This document shows, in pieces, positions 3,078 to 62,347 of a stretch of 64,000 nucleotides of DNA (positions are counted from its first letter, which is position 1; every line of letters begins with the position of its first letter). The position numbers and the translations under genes are program-made. Source of the DNA: an uncultured Verrucomicrobiales bacterium (GTDB lineage: Bacteria > Verrucomicrobiota > Verrucomicrobiia > Verrucomicrobiales > DEV007); assembly GCA_937891465.1 (NCBI GenBank), contig CALAHF010000019.1, positions 1 through 64,000 on the forward strand, in the 5' to 3' direction. The notes beneath the pieces were generated by a model that worked only from the letters and a program-made list of their open reading frames with translations, did no database searches and was not told where the DNA came from.

Positions 3078-3124
3078 TAGCCGCGCTTAAACCGTGATCC
3101 CGCTTTAAGATGATGGAAGTTTTC

Positions 3125-3167
3125 CGAACCAATAGGGTTGGTTCATTGAACATACCCTGTTGGATCG
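3125..3167. repeat. 43-bp palindromic repeat R2
   Basis: A near-ideal unit. The left half reads CGAACCAATAGGGTTGGTTC and the right half ends ACCCTGTTGGATCG. The whole 43 nt matches its own reverse complement at about four fifths of positions. It sits between the convergent ends of ftsH and xerD, after the ftsH terminator. The rest of this 222-bp gap shows nothing else. Confidence 0.9.
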
Positions 3168-3245
3168 TGGCGGAGAGCTCGCGGATATTTCCGCCCACGC
3201 CGGCGGCTTCGTTGGCGCCTGGAAAGTCGCCGCTCCTTGGAAATT

Positions 3246-4136
3246 CTATCCGCGCGGATGAAATTTTTTGTGAACGGCACGTAAATGTTTCTGGTCGACG
3301 TGCGTGTATATCTGCGTGGTCGAAATATCCGCGTGGCCGAGCAGTTCCTGAATCACTCGCAAGTCCGCTCCGTTCCCGAGCAAGTGCGTTGCAAACGAAT
3401 GCCGAAGCAGGTGCGGATAAACATTTCCATCCAGCCCTGCCATTTTTGCCCGTGTTTTTACGATCTGCCAAATGCGCGTCGTTGTGAGTTTGGTGCCACG
3501 GATTGAAATAAAGATCTCGCTGCTGGTTTTCGGTGACACGAGATTGGGACGCTCGTTATCGAGATAATATTCGATCGTTTCACGAGCCTTTTTGCCGACA
3601 GGAACAATCCGTGTTTTGTTGCCTTTTCCGGTCACGCGAATGACGCCTTCTTTCAAATGCAAATTCTCGAGACGTGCACCCGTCAGCTCCGAAACGCGGA
3701 GGCCGCTGGCGTAAAGCAGCTCAATGATCGCCAGATCGCGTTTCCCAAGCGGTTGGCCTGTATCGATCGAATCGATCAGCTTCATTACGTTGGGTTCGTT
3801 GAGCGTCTCGGGGAGGTATTTTTCCAAACGCGGGGAATCAACCTGATCGGCGATGTCTTTTGAAATGAGCCCTTTCGCCGCGAGGTGGCGGAAGAAAATC
3901 TTCGTCGCGATCAGCTCAATCCGGAGACTGGCGGCAGCGAGTCCCGCTTTTTTGCGTTCAGCGAGTTGATCGGTGATGTGTTCAAGCAGAACTTGTTTCC
4001 AGTCAGTAATTTCTCGATTTTCCGCAAGCCAATCCGCGAGGCGTTCAAGCGATCGGCGAACGGAAATTTGATAATTATCCGACAGCCCGCGTTCTGTTGC
4101 GAGGTAGCGGATAAAGCGTTCGATCGCCTGATTCAT
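3246..4136 (-). CDS. xerD: Tyrosine recombinase XerC/XerD
   Basis: Site-specific recombinase that resolves chromosome dimers at dif during division. The 296-residue length is typical of Xer proteins. The N-terminal SAM-like DNA-binding domain spans about 1-95 and the catalytic domain about 110-290. The full catalytic set is visible: R147 (ASGLRVSEL), K171 (TGKGNK), H242 and R245 (HLLRHSFATHLL), H268 (LLGHADI) and nucleophile Y277 (TTQIYTHV). It reads closer to XerD than XerC, but a single-recombinase system is possible. The start is ATG at 4136, 5 nt after the stop of an upstream small frame, so it is probably cotranscribed with the genes to its right. Confidence 0.93.
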   Translation of the reverse strand: MNQAIERFIRYLATERGLSDNYQISVRRSLERLADWLAENREITDWKQVLLEHITDQLAERKKAGLAAASLRIELIATKIFFRHLAAKGLISKDIADQVDSPRLEKYLPETLNEPNVMKLIDSIDTGQPLGKRDLAIIELLYASGLRVSELTGARLENLHLKEGVIRVTGKGNKTRIVPVGKKARETIEYYLDNERPNLVSPKTSSEIFISIRGTKLTTTRIWQIVKTRAKMAGLDGNVYPHLLRHSFATHLLGNGADLRVIQELLGHADISTTQIYTHVDQKHLRAVHKKFHPRG

Positions 4137-10566: not shown

Positions 10567-10578
10567 AAACCGCTTTCA

Positions 10579-10621
10579 CGAACCAACCCTATCGATTCGC
10601 CAAACCAACCCTGTTCATTCG
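10579..10621. repeat. 43-bp palindromic repeat R3
   Basis: A complete 43-bp unit with both loops reading ACCCT (CGAACCAACCCTATCGATTC, then AACCAACCCTGTTCATTCG). The two halves are thus in direct orientation with a ~22-nt period rather than head to head. It lies 25 nt upstream of the uxaE start codon. Confidence 0.9.
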
Positions 10622-10646
10622 TGAAATCCGTGCTTAAATCGACGGC

Positions 10647-11861
10647 ATGTTGATCATCGGAAAATACTCGTTTGGAATGGGAGATCGCTTTGCCCATCAG
10701 GGTGTGGCGCAGCTTCGGGCATGCGCGCTGGCGAAATCGGAATTGGGAGTGGATATCGTTCCAGTTTGGAATAAATCTCATCGTGAGCACACTACAATTG
10801 GTTCGGAGCCGATCAGCACAAGGATTGCAGCAGACGCCGCTGTCGCCGAATTAAAATGGACAGCCCCTCACTTTGTTGACGCCGATCACATCAATCTCGA
10901 CACGGTGGATCACTACACTGGGTTCGCTGATTTTTTCACGATCGACGTTGCTGATTCAATTGGTGAACAGCCGAATCCGGAATCAGTCGCAGTGTTTATC
11001 GAAAAGCATCCCGAGTTGGTCGAAGAGTTTGGAAAGGACACCGTGCAAGCCTGCGCAAATCAATTTTTGCTTGCGGTTCAGAAAGCGGGTGAAATTTATC
11101 GCCATATCAAAGAGGCCAAAGGCGGCGACAATTTTGTGACGGAGGTTTCGATGGATGAAACGGATTCCCCACAGACGCCGCCGGAATTGTTGATCATTCT
11201 CGCAGCGATCGCCGACGAAGAAATTCCCGTGCAAACCATCGCTCCGAAGTTCACGGGCCGTTTTAATAAAGGCGTCGATTATGTGGGCGACGTCGAGCAA
11301 TTCGAAAAGGAATTCAACGATGACCTTGCCGTGATCAAACGGGCAATCGCTGCCTATGGCTTGCCGGAAAATTTAAAACTCAGTGTGCATTCCGGAAGTG
11401 ACAAATTTTCGATCTACGGCCCGATTTCAAAAGCGCTGAAGGAAACCGGTGCAGGAATTCATTTGAAAACCGCCGGCACAACCTGGCTGGAAGAATTGAT
11501 CGGACTCGCCGCTGCGGGTGGTGAAGGTTTGCAGCTTGCAAAGGATGTTTACCGCGAAGCGCTCGCGAATGCGTATGCCCTGTGCGCGCCGTATGCGTCG
11601 GTTATCGACATTGATACTGCTCAACTTCCATCCGCTGACGAGGTCGATGGCTGGTCTTCGGAACAATACCAAAATTCGCTGCGTCACGATCAATCCATTG
11701 CTAAATTCAATCCGCACGTTCGACAGCTGCTGCACGTGGGTTACAAAGTCGCGGCCCGGATGGGAGATCGCTATTTGAATTTGCTGAAAGAATGCGAAGC
11801 CGTTGTTGCGAAGAACGTAACGGAAAACCTTTTCGAGCGTCATCTGAAGCGCTTGTTCTGA
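10647..11861 (+). CDS. uxaE: Tagaturonate epimerase UxaE
   Basis: Epimerises D-tagaturonate and D-fructuronate in the hexuronate (galacturonate/glucuronate) pathway; a cytosolic metal-dependent enzyme. The 404-residue protein matches the UxaE family over its full length, with the N-terminal MGDRFAHQG segment, HFVDADHINLDTVD, MDETDSPQTPPELL, the metal-site region APKFTGRFNKGVDYVGD, HSGSDKFSIY and a C-terminal HVGYKVAARMGDRY. It is the only classical uronate-pathway gene here and suggests growth on pectin- or alginate-like uronates. It starts 25 nt after repeat R3 and overlaps the next gene by 1 nt, which points to coupled translation. Confidence 0.88.
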   Translation: MLIIGKYSFGMGDRFAHQGVAQLRACALAKSELGVDIVPVWNKSHREHTTIGSEPISTRIAADAAVAELKWTAPHFVDADHINLDTVDHYTGFADFFTIDVADSIGEQPNPESVAVFIEKHPELVEEFGKDTVQACANQFLLAVQKAGEIYRHIKEAKGGDNFVTEVSMDETDSPQTPPELLIILAAIADEEIPVQTIAPKFTGRFNKGVDYVGDVEQFEKEFNDDLAVIKRAIAAYGLPENLKLSVHSGSDKFSIYGPISKALKETGAGIHLKTAGTTWLEELIGLAAAGGEGLQLAKDVYREALANAYALCAPYASVIDIDTAQLPSADEVDGWSSEQYQNSLRHDQSIAKFNPHVRQLLHVGYKVAARMGDRYLNLLKECEAVVAKNVTENLFERHLKRLF

Positions 11862-12673
11862 TGGCTGCCCCCTCCCCTTCCGAGTTCGTGTTTTCGACCG
11901 AATCTGCGATTTGGGAAGTGAATAGTCGCTGGACGGGAATGGTGTTCGGTCCGGCTGCTGCCATTTTGCAGATTGCCCATCCCAAGGTCGCTCATGGAGT
12001 GGCACGTCACAGCAACTTCAAATCAGATGCGTTGGGACGACTGACGCGAACCCTCGCTGACGTGAATAGCATCGCGTTTGGAACGTGGGGGGAAGCTGAA
12101 GCCACGAAGAAGCGGCTGTTTGAAATGCATTCCAAAGTCCGGGGCACTTCGGACGGCGGAGTCTCGTATCATGCACTCGATCAGGATTTACTCGTGTGGG
12201 TTTTGGCAACGTTAGTGATGGCTTCAGTCCAGGGATACGAGCTGGTTTACGGCGCTATGAGCGAGAAACAAAAAGAACTCTTCCTTCAGGACATGGTGAC
12301 AATGGGACAGTTCTTTGGCATAAGCGACAGCGTTGATGGCCGAACCTCCAATTGGGCTGCTTTCGAAAATTACTACAACGGAATGATCGATGGCGATCTC
12401 CTCGGGAGCGATCCCATTTGCGGAGAGCTGGCCCGGTATCTGGTGAAACCCCAAGATAGCCTCACCGTTCGCTTGCTTGGCCACGCCGTCGATTTCGTTC
12501 CCATCGAAACGCTGCCCGCCCAGCTTTTGGGAACGTTGACATTGAAATCGACACGCGCTTCTCGTGCGAAAATAAGAGCCTTTGAAACAACGTTCCCCGC
12601 GATTTTTAAAAGCCTTCCCGAAAAGCGAAAGTATTACGATCGCTCGAGGGCACGATGCTTTGAAGGGAAATAA
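11861..12673 (+). CDS. DUF2236 / MpaB-family oxygenase-like protein
   Basis: 270 residues. The ATG overlaps the uxaE stop codon (TGATG), so this start is preferred over longer versions. The sequence carries the DUF2236 pattern: SAIWEVNSRW and GPAAAILQIAHPKVAHGVARH near the start, then RTLADVNSIAFGTWGEA and ALDQDLLVWVLATLV. The family includes the fungal oxygenase MpaB and latex-clearing protein Lcp, where the His residues bind heme or metal. The function here is unknown; coupling to uxaE is unexpected for the family. The stop lies 5 nt from the convergent end of the PanE-like gene. Confidence 0.8.
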   Translation: MAAPSPSEFVFSTESAIWEVNSRWTGMVFGPAAAILQIAHPKVAHGVARHSNFKSDALGRLTRTLADVNSIAFGTWGEAEATKKRLFEMHSKVRGTSDGGVSYHALDQDLLVWVLATLVMASVQGYELVYGAMSEKQKELFLQDMVTMGQFFGISDSVDGRTSNWAAFENYYNGMIDGDLLGSDPICGELARYLVKPQDSLTVRLLGHAVDFVPIETLPAQLLGTLTLKSTRASRAKIRAFETTFPAIFKSLPEKRKYYDRSRARCFEGK

Positions 12674-18600: not shown

Positions 18601-18621
18601 TTTACAAAAACTACGTTTTTA

Positions 18622-18664
18622 CGATCCAATAGGGTACGTTCATCGATCATACCCTATTTGATCG
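18622..18664. repeat. 43-bp palindromic repeat R4a
   Basis: First unit of a pair between the lipase-like gene and menB (both leftward). Head-to-head loops AGGGT and ACCCT, ends CGATCCAA and TTTGATCG. Separated from unit R4b by exactly 11 nt (AAACGGGTTTT). Confidence 0.9.
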
Positions 18665-18675
18665 AAACGGGTTTT

Positions 18676-18718
18676 CGAACCATAAGGGTTGATTCGCCGA
18701 TCATACCCTATTTGTTCG
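18676..18718. repeat. 43-bp palindromic repeat R4b
   Basis: Second unit of the pair, loops AGGGT and ACCCT, ending CCCTATTTGTTCG. The stop codon (TAG on the minus strand, 18708-18710) of the lipase-like gene lies inside this unit. Confidence 0.9.
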
Positions 18719-20375
18719 TGGAAATCGATTTAGGGGTCTCGACTTGAGAAAGGATTTCAGTGACATCTTCTGGAACGGGAACACCAATGTGAATGCTGAG
18801 GATTCGCTCCAGTTCTGCGATTCCAGCTTCGGATTGATGGACAGAATGTTTGGTGCGCGGAATGACAATTTGGGATTCGGCAGCATCCATTATAGCGCTG
18901 CTGTAGGGAACCACGCCGTCAGACCATTTTTTCTGAGGCTGATCAAATCCTCGTTCGATGGCAACGATCGAATGACAGATGACGTCTGGTTTCAGAGGCA
19001 TTGAATCCATCAGCAACAACATTGGAGAATCAGGCCGCAAACCATCGATGCTGGTCGGTGGATTGGCTGCGATTTCAAGTCCAAGCGGGGTCAGACTGGT
19101 CCGACCGATATTGACGAGTTCGGTGGATACATTGACAATTTGTTGCGGCAAATCAATCAGCTTCGAGATCAGCCCACTGAACGGATTGGTCGCAAAACCG
19201 CTACCACGATGGGGTGTGGCCATGAAAACGACGCGACTAATGCTTGGAACGGGCTCGAAATACATCATATCACGAAGCACCGTTTCGTTGGATTCACTGA
19301 GACCAAGTGTCTCAAGGGGCTGGGTAAAAATCTGATCCCAGTTTGAATTCCCACTGGTCTGAAGGAGCCCTTTTGCCAACAATCCACCCATGCTGTGACC
19401 GACGACGAGAAGATCGTCATCTGATCCTCCCTGTGCTGTGCGGAACTGGTGCATTGCGGCGATTTCTCTTCGCAACCGCATGGCGGAATACGGGATAGGC
19501 GCCCCTGTTGGGTAACCGTAGCTCCAGAATTCGAATCGCTCACGAAGGGCAGGGTTGGCGAGAATTTTATTGAGGGCTTCCTTCCATGTAGCGGGGCCGG
19601 ATTTAAGTCCGTGAACGAGAATACAGGGAATTTTTCCAGCATCAAACGGAGTCAGGCGAATGAGACCCAATTTGCCCTCAAACTTAGCGTAATGAAGCAT
19701 CGCAGGCAGGTGAAATAGCTGCTTGTCCCGGAGCGCAAACCCGGTTGCGAGCGGAATTGAGTAGTCTGTAGCTAATGCGGTGGGATGTCCGTTCACGCTG
19801 ATTTTTTGTCGCACAGCGGGATCATAGATCACAAGTTTTGCGCGATCAGGCTCGCCGTTGAATTCCAATATTGCGGTGGCCGGCTGCCAGAGTCCTTCTG
19901 GAGCAATGAATGGATCGCTTTCGGAAGCGGGGGTGCATAAAGCGAGCGAAGCCCCGACGCCGTCATCACTGACAATTCGATTGAGCCCCCGTTTGATCAA
20001 CGTCAAATCAGACACATACATGTGCTCGTGATTTCTCAGATCGAGATCGCCTTTCGTGCCAGGATCCAGATCAACGATCACCTTGTTTCGCAAACTGTTC
20101 AGTGTGATCGTTTTTTGGCCCGGCTTTGGCATGGATTTTCCGGCCAGCTTTACAACAACATCATCGACCGCCTGGTTGTAAGCTTTGATGTCTTCAGGAG
20201 TTGCGGTACCTGATTGGATTCGTTCCCAGACGATGCGGGTTTCTGCCAAATCAACCTGCTTCCCGGTGAACGCACCGATTTTTTGCTTCACCACAACGCG
20301 CTGAGAGCACGCGGGGAGCAAAAATAGAATCAAGACGGCCGTCAAGGGGAGGGCCAAAGGTTGGCGATTATTCAT
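18708..20375 (-). CDS. Lipoprotein with alpha/beta hydrolase (lipase/esterase) domain
   Basis: 555 residues if started at ATG 20375, which places the lipoprotein signal directly at the N-terminus (LTAVLILFLLPACS, lipidated Cys). An upstream ATG at 20405 would add ten residues and spoil the short n-region. The mature protein has an N-terminal unknown region and then a lipase domain: oxyanion strand IPCILVHGLKSGPATW and nucleophile elbow VVGHSMGG, with candidate His in RTKHSVHQS near the C-terminus. This resembles secreted triacylglycerol-lipase/PGAP1-like esterases. The final residues (TNK) and the stop codon are encoded by repeat R4b. Confidence 0.82.
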   Translation of the reverse strand: MNNRQPLALPLTAVLILFLLPACSQRVVVKQKIGAFTGKQVDLAETRIVWERIQSGTATPEDIKAYNQAVDDVVVKLAGKSMPKPGQKTITLNSLRNKVIVDLDPGTKGDLDLRNHEHMYVSDLTLIKRGLNRIVSDDGVGASLALCTPASESDPFIAPEGLWQPATAILEFNGEPDRAKLVIYDPAVRQKISVNGHPTALATDYSIPLATGFALRDKQLFHLPAMLHYAKFEGKLGLIRLTPFDAGKIPCILVHGLKSGPATWKEALNKILANPALRERFEFWSYGYPTGAPIPYSAMRLRREIAAMHQFRTAQGGSDDDLLVVGHSMGGLLAKGLLQTSGNSNWDQIFTQPLETLGLSESNETVLRDMMYFEPVPSISRVVFMATPHRGSGFATNPFSGLISKLIDLPQQIVNVSTELVNIGRTSLTPLGLEIAANPPTSIDGLRPDSPMLLLMDSMPLKPDVICHSIVAIERGFDQPQKKWSDGVVPYSSAIMDAAESQIVIPRTKHSVHQSEAGIAELERILSIHIGVPVPEDVTEILSQVETPKSISTNK

Positions 20376-24582: not shown

Positions 24583-25806
24583 ATGCGCTCACGAACCACC
24601 CCTATTGAATCATCGAACCAACCCTGTCTGTTCGAAAAGGCATTTCGAATCAATAAGGTCTGTTCGACGATCATTCCCTGTTTGATCGTGGCGCAGTTGG
24701 CCTTTGCTGCTGAGCCAAAATTTGAGCGTCAGGAAATCGATTCGGAAGTCGAAGTCGGCTATGGGCTCGCGATCGGAGACGTCGATGGCGACGGCAAACC
24801 GGATGTTCTTCTGGCAGATAAACGACACTTTTCCTGGTATCAAAATTCTGCCGATTGGGCTGAATTTATCATGGCGAAAAATCTCTCGCTGAGAGACAAC
24901 GTCTGTATTGCTGCGGAAGATATCAATGACGATGGAAAAGTTGAAGTAGCTGTCGGAGCGATGTGGAACCCGGGCGAAACGAGCGACAAATCAAAGTCCG
25001 GCGCGGTTTTTTATCTGGTCCGACCGGAAGATCCGACAAAGGCATGGACACCGATTCAACTCAATCATGATCCTACGGTTCACCGCATGCGTTGGGTAAA
25101 GGCGGACGACAATCAATTTCGGCTCGTTGTACTGCCGCTCCACGGGATCAATAACAAAAACGGTGAAGGCGAGAATGGCGTGAACGTTCGGGTGCATCAC
25201 GCGCCGCTGAATTTGTGGAATGATCCAACTGCATGGAAAGATTCAGTGATCGAGAAGTCGCTTCACAAAACGCACAATCTGGACGATCTCGATGGCGACG
25301 TTTTGATCGGCGGAGCAGAAGGCGTTGTAAGACGCGATGTTTTGAATCCGCGCGAATCCGATCTGCGCATTTTGACGCCGGAAAACTCCGGAACCGAAGG
25401 TGTCGGAGAAGTGCGAATTGGCAGTGGGTTCATCACTACTGTTGAGCCCCTACACGGCAATACCCTCGCCGTTTACGAGAAGTCCGATGATGCTGAAAAG
25501 TGGACACGGACCATTTTGACCGATCAACTCAATCAAGGACATGCGCTCGCCACGGGGGACCTATTGGGCTTGGGAACGGATCAGATTGTGGTCGGATGGC
25601 GCAATCCTGATGCAAATGAGAAAGTAGGCATTAAGATTTTCTATCGCGAAAAAGCCGGTGCGGAATGGAAAAGCTACATCCTCGATGACAACAAAATGGC
25701 GACCGAAGATCTGAAAATCGCTGATCTGAACGGCGACGGCAAACTGGACGTCATCGCAGCGGGGCGAAAGACCCAGAATTTGGTGATCTACTGGAATCGC
25801 CGTTGA
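24583..25806 (+). CDS. Exported FG-GAP/VCBS beta-propeller protein
   Basis: 407 residues with repeated calcium-binding FG-GAP blades: IGDVDGDGKPDVLLAD, AEDINDDGKVEVAVGA, LDDLDGDVLIGGAEG, ATGDLLGLGTDQIVVGW and IADLNGDGKLDVIAAG. Such propellers are extracellular binding or adhesion modules. The only plausible start is ATG 24583, 9 nt after the upstream stop. From there residues 1-36 are read through repeat units R5a and R5b, and most of the hydrophobic core of the predicted signal peptide (about 26-42, cleavage near AFA) is encoded by unit R5b. The n-region is unusually long (25 residues), also repeat-derived. Confidence 0.8.
   Translation: MRSRTTPIESSNQPCLFEKAFRINKVCSTIIPCLIVAQLAFAAEPKFERQEIDSEVEVGYGLAIGDVDGDGKPDVLLADKRHFSWYQNSADWAEFIMAKNLSLRDNVCIAAEDINDDGKVEVAVGAMWNPGETSDKSKSGAVFYLVRPEDPTKAWTPIQLNHDPTVHRMRWVKADDNQFRLVVLPLHGINNKNGEGENGVNVRVHHAPLNLWNDPTAWKDSVIEKSLHKTHNLDDLDGDVLIGGAEGVVRRDVLNPRESDLRILTPENSGTEGVGEVRIGSGFITTVEPLHGNTLAVYEKSDDAEKWTRTILTDQLNQGHALATGDLLGLGTDQIVVGWRNPDANEKVGIKIFYREKAGAEWKSYILDDNKMATEDLKIADLNGDGKLDVIAAGRKTQNLVIYWNRR
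24592..24634. repeat. 43-bp palindromic repeat R5a
   Basis: First unit of a pair. Both loops are in the CCCCT/ACCCT orientation (direct halves). It lies inside the 5' end of the FG-GAP gene. An 11-nt spacer (AAAAGGCATTT) separates it from R5b. Confidence 0.88.
24646..24688. repeat. 43-bp palindromic repeat R5b
   Basis: Second unit of the pair, head-to-head loops AAGGT and TCCCT. It encodes residues 22-36 of the FG-GAP protein, including most of its signal-peptide hydrophobic core. Confidence 0.88.
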
Positions 25807-28269: not shown

Positions 28270-28282
28270 TTTAATTTTAAAA

Positions 28283-28325
28283 CAATCCAACAGGGTCTGT
28301 TCGCTGAATCAATAGGGTTGGATCG
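28283..28325. repeat. 43-bp palindromic repeat R6
   Basis: A complete unit with both loops AGGGT (direct halves: CAATCCAACAGGGTCTGTTC, then GAATCAATAGGGTTGGATCG). It lies between two rightward genes, 38 nt before the next start codon. Confidence 0.9.
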
Positions 28326-28363
28326 TTGAACTCTGAATCGCAATCCGTTAGCTTCTTTGAAAG

Positions 28364-36910: not shown

Positions 36911-36930
36911 TTTCCAGATCGGGTGATTTT

Positions 36931-36973
36931 CGATCGAACAGGGTAGGTTCGGCGAACATATCCTGTCTGTTCG
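36931..36973. repeat. 43-bp palindromic repeat R7a
   Basis: First unit of a pair between the convergent ends of cysJ and the LysR pseudogene. Loops AGGGT and ATCCT (head to head). An 11-nt spacer (AAACGGCTCCG) separates it from R7b. Confidence 0.9.
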
Positions 36974-36984
36974 AAACGGCTCCG

Positions 36985-37028
36985 CGATCCAATAGGGGTA
37001 GGTTCGGTGAACCAACAGGGTTGGATCG
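36985..37028. repeat. 43-bp palindromic repeat R7b (44 nt)
   Basis: Second unit of the pair. Both loops are in the AGGGG/AGGGT orientation (direct halves), with one extra G making it 44 nt. Confidence 0.88.
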
Positions 37029-37043
37029 TTCTGGTATTCGGGA

Positions 37044-49187: not shown

Positions 49188-49193
49188 TTCTCG

Positions 49194-49236
49194 CGAACCA
49201 ACAGAGCACGTTCGATGAACAGACCCTGTAGCTTTG
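49194..49236. repeat. 43-bp palindromic repeat R8
   Basis: A diverged unit (loops AGAGC and ACCCT, right end GTAGCTTTG) starting 6 nt after the stop of the ThuA protein gene. Confidence 0.75.
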
Positions 49237-49268
49237 TAGATCGCTCATAGGCTTTCAGAAATTGACAC

Positions 49269-51274: not shown

Positions 51275-51321
51275 TTTTCAGTCTGAGAATGCATTATTCG
51301 TCACTCAAAAAAGTCGCTCCA

Positions 51322-51364
51322 CGATCCAACCCTATTGGTTCGTCGAACGTACCCTGTTCGATCG
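51322..51364. repeat. 43-bp palindromic repeat R9
   Basis: A complete unit with both loops ACCCT (direct halves, CGATCCAACCCTATTGGTTC at the left). It ends 21 nt before the start codon of the DUF1080-cytochrome gene. Confidence 0.9.
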
Positions 51365-51385
51365 TTCGATCCAAAATTTAAGTTT

Positions 51386-62268: not shown

Positions 62269-62296
62269 ATCGTAAATTAATTGTCAGGAGTGTTTT

Positions 62297-62339
62297 CGAA
62301 GTAGCAGGGTTGCTTCATCGAACAGACCCTGTTGCTTCG
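62297..62339. repeat. 43-bp palindromic repeat R10
   Basis: A complete head-to-head unit (loops AGGGT and ACCCT) with altered arm bases: CGAAGTAGCAGGGTTGCTTC at the left and CCCTGTTGCTTCG at the right. The changes on both arms compensate, so pairing is kept. It lies between two leftward genes. Confidence 0.9.
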
Positions 62340-62347
62340 TGAGAGAT

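Follow-up and report, generated by a model that had tools for sequence, protein, structure and literature searches.

The origins of signal peptides are little documented. Among the closest described systems, the predicted signal peptide of YPO1552 was described by Delihas as consisting in part of the 168-nt RU-2 repeat of Yersinia (PMC2759123, PMC2229807), and Rickettsia palindromic elements (RPEs) lie in frame in many genes (reviewed in PMC10969869); a survey of repetitive extragenic palindromic (REP) sequences judged most N-terminal copies in three species to be untranslated (PMC3733652). Here, we analyzed a stretch of 64,000 nucleotides from an uncultured Verrucomicrobiales bacterium (assembly GCA_937891465.1, contig CALAHF010000019.1, positions 1 to 64,000; hereafter 'the window'), in which the reading frame of a gene encoding an FG-GAP protein opens with two copies, R5a and R5b, of a short palindromic repeat. 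Our main finding is that this dispersed repeat very probably landed at the 5' end of the gene and became its Sec signal peptide. RU-2 and the RPEs precede the idea; what is new is a variant with a 45-nt, high-copy repeat. Our literature search, which covered few subscription papers, returned no further case of a repeat-derived signal peptide beyond those cited.

As in the FG-GAP case, relatives that lack the element (RU-2/YAPL) have unrelated signals. Whereas RU-2 concerns one main exported protein, the repeat described here has a unit of 45 nt and about a thousand copies, is involved in at least seven genes in two reading frames, and was compared over six species. Compared by description, RPEs, which are selfish repeats, and the Verrucomicrobiales repeat are both palindromic and both in frame in genes (at least seven here), but RPEs are about 150 nt long and entered many unrelated genes, whereas the unit and the pair here measure 45 nt and 99 nt, almost every copy is intergenic, and those coding copies that we followed up sit at signal peptides. 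The repeat has the properties by which REPs are recognized, being short, very abundant, palindromic, mostly intergenic, often paired and placed chiefly between co-directional or convergent genes (PMC3733652). It differs from them in that its consensus, ACGAACCAACAGGGTTGGTTCGTCGAACAAACCCTGTTGGTTCGT, lacks the GTAG tag, with CGTC only between its halves, and in that we found no RAYT transposase flanked by repeats: a search for such an association yielded one Y1_Tnp match, interrupted by a stop, in this genome (G000), and no unit in its 3.3-kb locus.

The product of the FG-GAP gene (Table 1) contains FG-GAP_3 and FG-GAP repeats according to Pfam, and has matches in 43 of the 57 genomes searched, its own counted in. 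The original prediction had named ATG 24583 as the only start; it is indeed the sole ATG, but three TTG or GTG codons downstream are likewise in frame. Read from this ATG, the protein begins with a putative Sec type I signal peptide, and both export and cleavage are predicted; the test for signal peptides was a crude script for n-, h- and c-regions. The n-region is basic (R2, R4, K19, R22 and K25, against E9 and E18), the best 11-residue hydropathy of the signal is 2.5, and small residues are seen by inspection at -3 and -1 (A-F-A) ahead of A43; F47, the first invariant column of the protein family, comes just past the signal. As predicted, both repeat units are read in frame within this peptide, and the second supplies most of the hydrophobic core, which is followed by LAFA/AEP (the slash marking the predicted cleavage site). 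The first unit is hydrophilic, with a hydropathy that is ordinary among copies, and would serve as the n-region. The second has a best nine-residue hydropathy of 2.32, a value that no open dispersed copy, out of 281 read in that frame, attains; its counterpart in the congener G001 (1.91) is likewise unequalled among these 281.

Six species carry the repeat at this gene start; they belong to two genera, g1 (which includes the window's species) and g12. In G001 (75% identity) the same pair occupies the same frame and place, with no insertion or deletion in the pair, and gives MSLRSNPVDSPNKPCWIVSRFRMNRVCSTILPCCFVFAVATA ahead of AEP; in four g12 species the signal peptide is built on a single unit, likewise read in that frame (MTLFALRSNRVASAILSSLIGFCGLAATAAAQTF in G012, MTAARFSDRLNRVGFPVLPSLVTFLAVTDFLVAAPSAKF in G035). 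Start regions were scored by position matrices, a g1 model and a g12 model: those of the six species reach 14 to 56 and 20 to 51, respectively, and those of the four g12 species 14 to 33 and 20 to 47, for a shuffled maximum between 2.9 and 7. The repeat was not found at the gene start in 13 other relatives (scores of -4.9 or less). The several repeat-free orthologues, from other genera, that we read directly for their original N-terminus have ordinary short signal peptides (for example, MRSLLLALIAVCLTLGSAGFAIAEP in G016); the repeat would thus have taken over an existing export function. We also looked for orthologues with a downstream start and a different signal: G001 and the four g12 species keep the repeat-built one. 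By hydropathy, the G012 unit is at the top of 55, with one copy equally high that is probably the unit itself (only window copies were excluded), and the repeat peptides of G035 and G023 lie in the upper part of the range. The orthologue comparison and the hydropathy of the second unit thus bear out the original claim that a palindrome was turned into an export signal, export being predicted from sequence.

We propose that the FG-GAP gene was first equipped with an ordinary Sec signal peptide, and that a copy of the high-copy repeat then arrived at its 5' end. In the six species it now lies inside the open frame, where it forms the n-region and most of the h-region, and a c-region with an AxA cleavage site follows it (LAFA/AEP, ATA/AEP). 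Translation would begin at ATG 24583, the peptide would direct Sec export and then be cut off, and substitutions raising the hydrophobicity of the second unit would have been favoured. Recruitment would have worked because one frame of the unit is usually stop-free and reads roughly R-S/T-N-R-V-x-S-x-x-x-P-C-x-I/F-V, basic and then moderately hydrophobic, which is near to what a signal peptide needs.

The repeat is a quasi-palindrome, each half of which is itself near-palindromic. In 1.264 Mb of its own genome, sampled by stretches and representing about a fifth of the 5.97-Mb assembly, 224 units score at least 20, which corresponds to about 1,000 per genome. The first 464 kb hold 90 such units, whereas shuffled sequence never scored above about 7, and 86 of 98 units there are intergenic although 82% of the bases are called coding. 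Units lie mostly between genes of the same direction or convergent genes, and at least 14 copies are within the window. Pairs about 54 nt apart, the spacing seen at the FG-GAP start, are frequent (Table 1). An ATG at column 23 is present in 112 of 448 oriented copies of G000, commonly giving MNQPCCF or MNQPYCF. Among the 57 genomes, the repeat is numerous only in g1 and g12 (12 to at least 110 matches per genome), and the others gave two weak matches in one genome and one in another. No matching Rfam family was found for the window. The description of the repeat as mobile is supported indirectly, by its copy number and by presence or absence at one further gene (L122, see below), while no transposase could be tied to the family; the pair may be the mobile form.

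The repeat was probably recruited in the same way by several further genes; two frames are involved, and the start is sometimes an ATG that the repeat itself provides. The sampled 1.264 Mb contains at least six more genes whose signal peptide overlaps a repeat in frame (Table 1); L098, L119 and L080 are weaker cases. The automatic signal test caught five of the seven strong cases (these six and the FG-GAP gene), the TPR and PSCyt2/PSD1 proteins being recognized by eye. For the BD-FAE-type hydrolase L122, the orthologue of the sister species lacks the repeat (best score -15.8) and has an ordinary signal, MKHTLLLPVFFLLALTGFAQ, equal in length (20 residues) to MTQPCWFVIIAMLAASTLAQ counted from the ATG within the repeat. 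For the esterase L067, the G001 orthologue has an apparent decayed copy (score 7.3) in the same place and frame. We also ranked all open copies by hydropathy regardless of their position relative to genes. In one frame, L091 and L067 led a list of 230, and in another the FG-GAP gene led a list of 303; all three copies belong to gene-linked signal peptides. A tail of decayed repeats was sought in signal-peptide genes, of which 7 of 370 in G000 and none of 133 in G016 scored 0 or more; nothing fell between 0 and 30, and hence there is no hidden excess of decayed repeats. In L152, the G001 orthologue of the TPR gene, the signal MNRVGLAKRQGWFAAAVFCWTAAAGTFAV starts inside the repeat (35.4), at another point of the unit than in G000.

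Given a stop-free frame that is basic and then hydrophobic, an internal ATG in a quarter of the copies and repeated capture, we lean slightly towards the view that g1 has in this repeat family a lasting supply of new signal peptides, to which roughly 30 to 50 secreted proteins per genome may owe their signal. Such a repeat leaves a clear signature: one can trace gene by gene, between species with and without it, how it is gained, how its palindrome decays and how hydrophobicity is refined. It also calls for caution, as a repeat at a gene start is not always an annotation error.

Several observations weigh against the conversion of the repeat into a signal peptide. The n-region of the 42-residue signal is unusually long, and a codon-usage gene caller favours GTG 24688 as the start. 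The repeat peptide of G029 does not exceed dispersed copies in hydrophobicity, and most of the hydrophobic core of that signal follows the repeat. Taken together, gene-linked copies do not surpass the others in hydrophobicity (p 0.19 to 0.43), only the top few doing so. The frame test does favour the gene's frame, which accounts for six of the signal-like readings that overlap the repeat, the two remaining frames giving two between them (G000 and G012 pooled), but it comprises eight cases only. The repeat family is nearly gapless, so the absence of indels is weak evidence. Finally, the proportions of non-synonymous (pN) and synonymous (pS) differences between G000 and G001 are equal inside the repeat (0.27 and 0.28 at window positions 24592-24690), and hence selection at the level of residues is not visible there; the amino acids within the repeat drift as those of signal peptides do.

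One possible but less probable history is that the repeat was recruited twice at this gene start, as a pair in g1 and as a single unit in g12. In the protein tree, both genera form supported clades (g1 with two rows, g12 with four), and these clades are not joined: the best tree, where g1 and g12 are not sisters, requires two changes, and one change suffices in only 4% of bootstrap trees. In favour of a single recruitment, g1 and g12 share the reading frame, a similar spot ahead of the cleavage site and, upstream, gene ends that resemble each other; moreover, the intervening branches of the tree hang on an open fork and the g2 rows are long-branched, which leaves room for one origin.

Alternatively, a role of the nucleic acid, such as an mRNA hairpin at the start codon that controls translation or stability, might keep the repeat in place, the signal peptide being a by-product. 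We consider this unlikely, although silent sites are far more conserved in the repeat than in the next 36 codons, where the two g1 species show a pN of 0.07 and a pS of 0.815; the leader has a strong predicted fold (-42.7 kcal/mol, z -3.3), and the g1 copies at the gene start score like typical dispersed ones. Against such a role, the hydrophobicity is extreme within the family, and in g12 the match decays yet the signal remains, with just 21% of hairpin positions paired at L005, for example. Covariation sought for a two-hairpin form was unsupported, full-palindrome pairing doing somewhat better, not decisively. The conserved silent sites suggest that the DNA or RNA form may also be kept, or that copies may exchange sequence, and RNA and protein roles of the repeat may coexist.

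Finally, it is very improbable that the start was mis-called, the repeat being an untranslated leader and translation starting at GTG 24688 or TTG 24697 to give a protein without a signal: the choice of the gene caller speaks for it, and in P. putida, C. koseri and S. maltophilia the majority of N-terminal REPs were attributed to mis-called starts (PMC3733652), but the frame stays open across the repeat in the orthologues of six species, the relatives read directly do have a signal peptide, a start downstream of ATG 24583 would spare the c-region only, and the hydropathy of the second unit is extreme among the 281 copies.

Table 1. Features of the FG-GAP locus, dispersed repeat units of the window, and other genes with repeat-derived signals (window coordinates, or locus)
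Feature	Location	Strand	Evidence or remark
FG-GAP / beta-propeller gene, 407 aa, N-terminal signal peptide	24583..25806	+	Open reading frame; Pfam FG-GAP_3 1.6e-12
Putative Sec signal peptide MRSRTTPIESSNQPCLFEKAFRINKVCSTIIPCLIVAQLAFA, expected by the AxA rule to be cut ahead of A43	24583..24708	+	Sequence; crude n/h/c test
Repeat unit R5a, loops ACCCC/ACCCT, residues 4-18, hydrophilic n-region	24591..24635	+	Score 49.1
Repeat unit R5b (residues 22-36, RINKVCSTIIPCLIV), loops AAGGT/ACCCT, bulk of the hydrophobic core	24645..24689	+	Score 47.1
Alternative in-frame starts TTG 24682, GTG 24688, TTG 24697	24682..24699	+	Each costs most or all of the signal peptide
Dispersed unit, intergenic	3124..3168	+
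Dispersed unit, intergenic	10578..10622	+
Dispersed pair, 54-nt spacing as R5a/R5b	18621..18719	+
Dispersed unit directly after DUF1592-type (PSD) gene	28282..28326	-
Dispersed pair at 55-nt spacing, its second unit aligned in reverse	36930..37029	+
Dispersed unit, intergenic	49193..49237	+
Dispersed unit upstream of 1123-aa gene	51321..51365	+	The gene's own signal-like start follows the repeat
Dispersed unit, intergenic	62296..62340	+
SASA-type esterase	L067		Repeat-derived signal MKFSRKLLKTIQPFLFIVLTLLVRENGFA
Phosphodiester glycosidase-like protein	L091		Repeat-derived signal
BD-FAE-type hydrolase	L122		Repeat-derived signal MTQPCWFVIIAMLAASTLAQ
Paralogue of the L122 BD-FAE-type hydrolase	L065		Repeat-derived signal
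TPR protein	L075		Repeat-derived signal, judged by reading the sequence
PSCyt2/PSD1 protein	L117		Repeat-derived signal, judged by reading the sequence

The repeat at 3124 was considered as a second N-terminal case and dropped, since its open reading frame is antisense to a longer one (3246-4136), which by eye is tyrosine recombinase-like. Elsewhere in the sample, the called N-terminus of L078:2886-4748 consists nearly entirely of a repeat pair and is not signal-like; its start is probably mis-called. A repeat-like match (32.8) also lies at L075:12056-12100, around residues 37-52 of a minus-strand gene (11190-12212) that by eye resembles dihydroorotate dehydrogenase; it could be an internal insertion in frame, or else resemble the repeat by chance.
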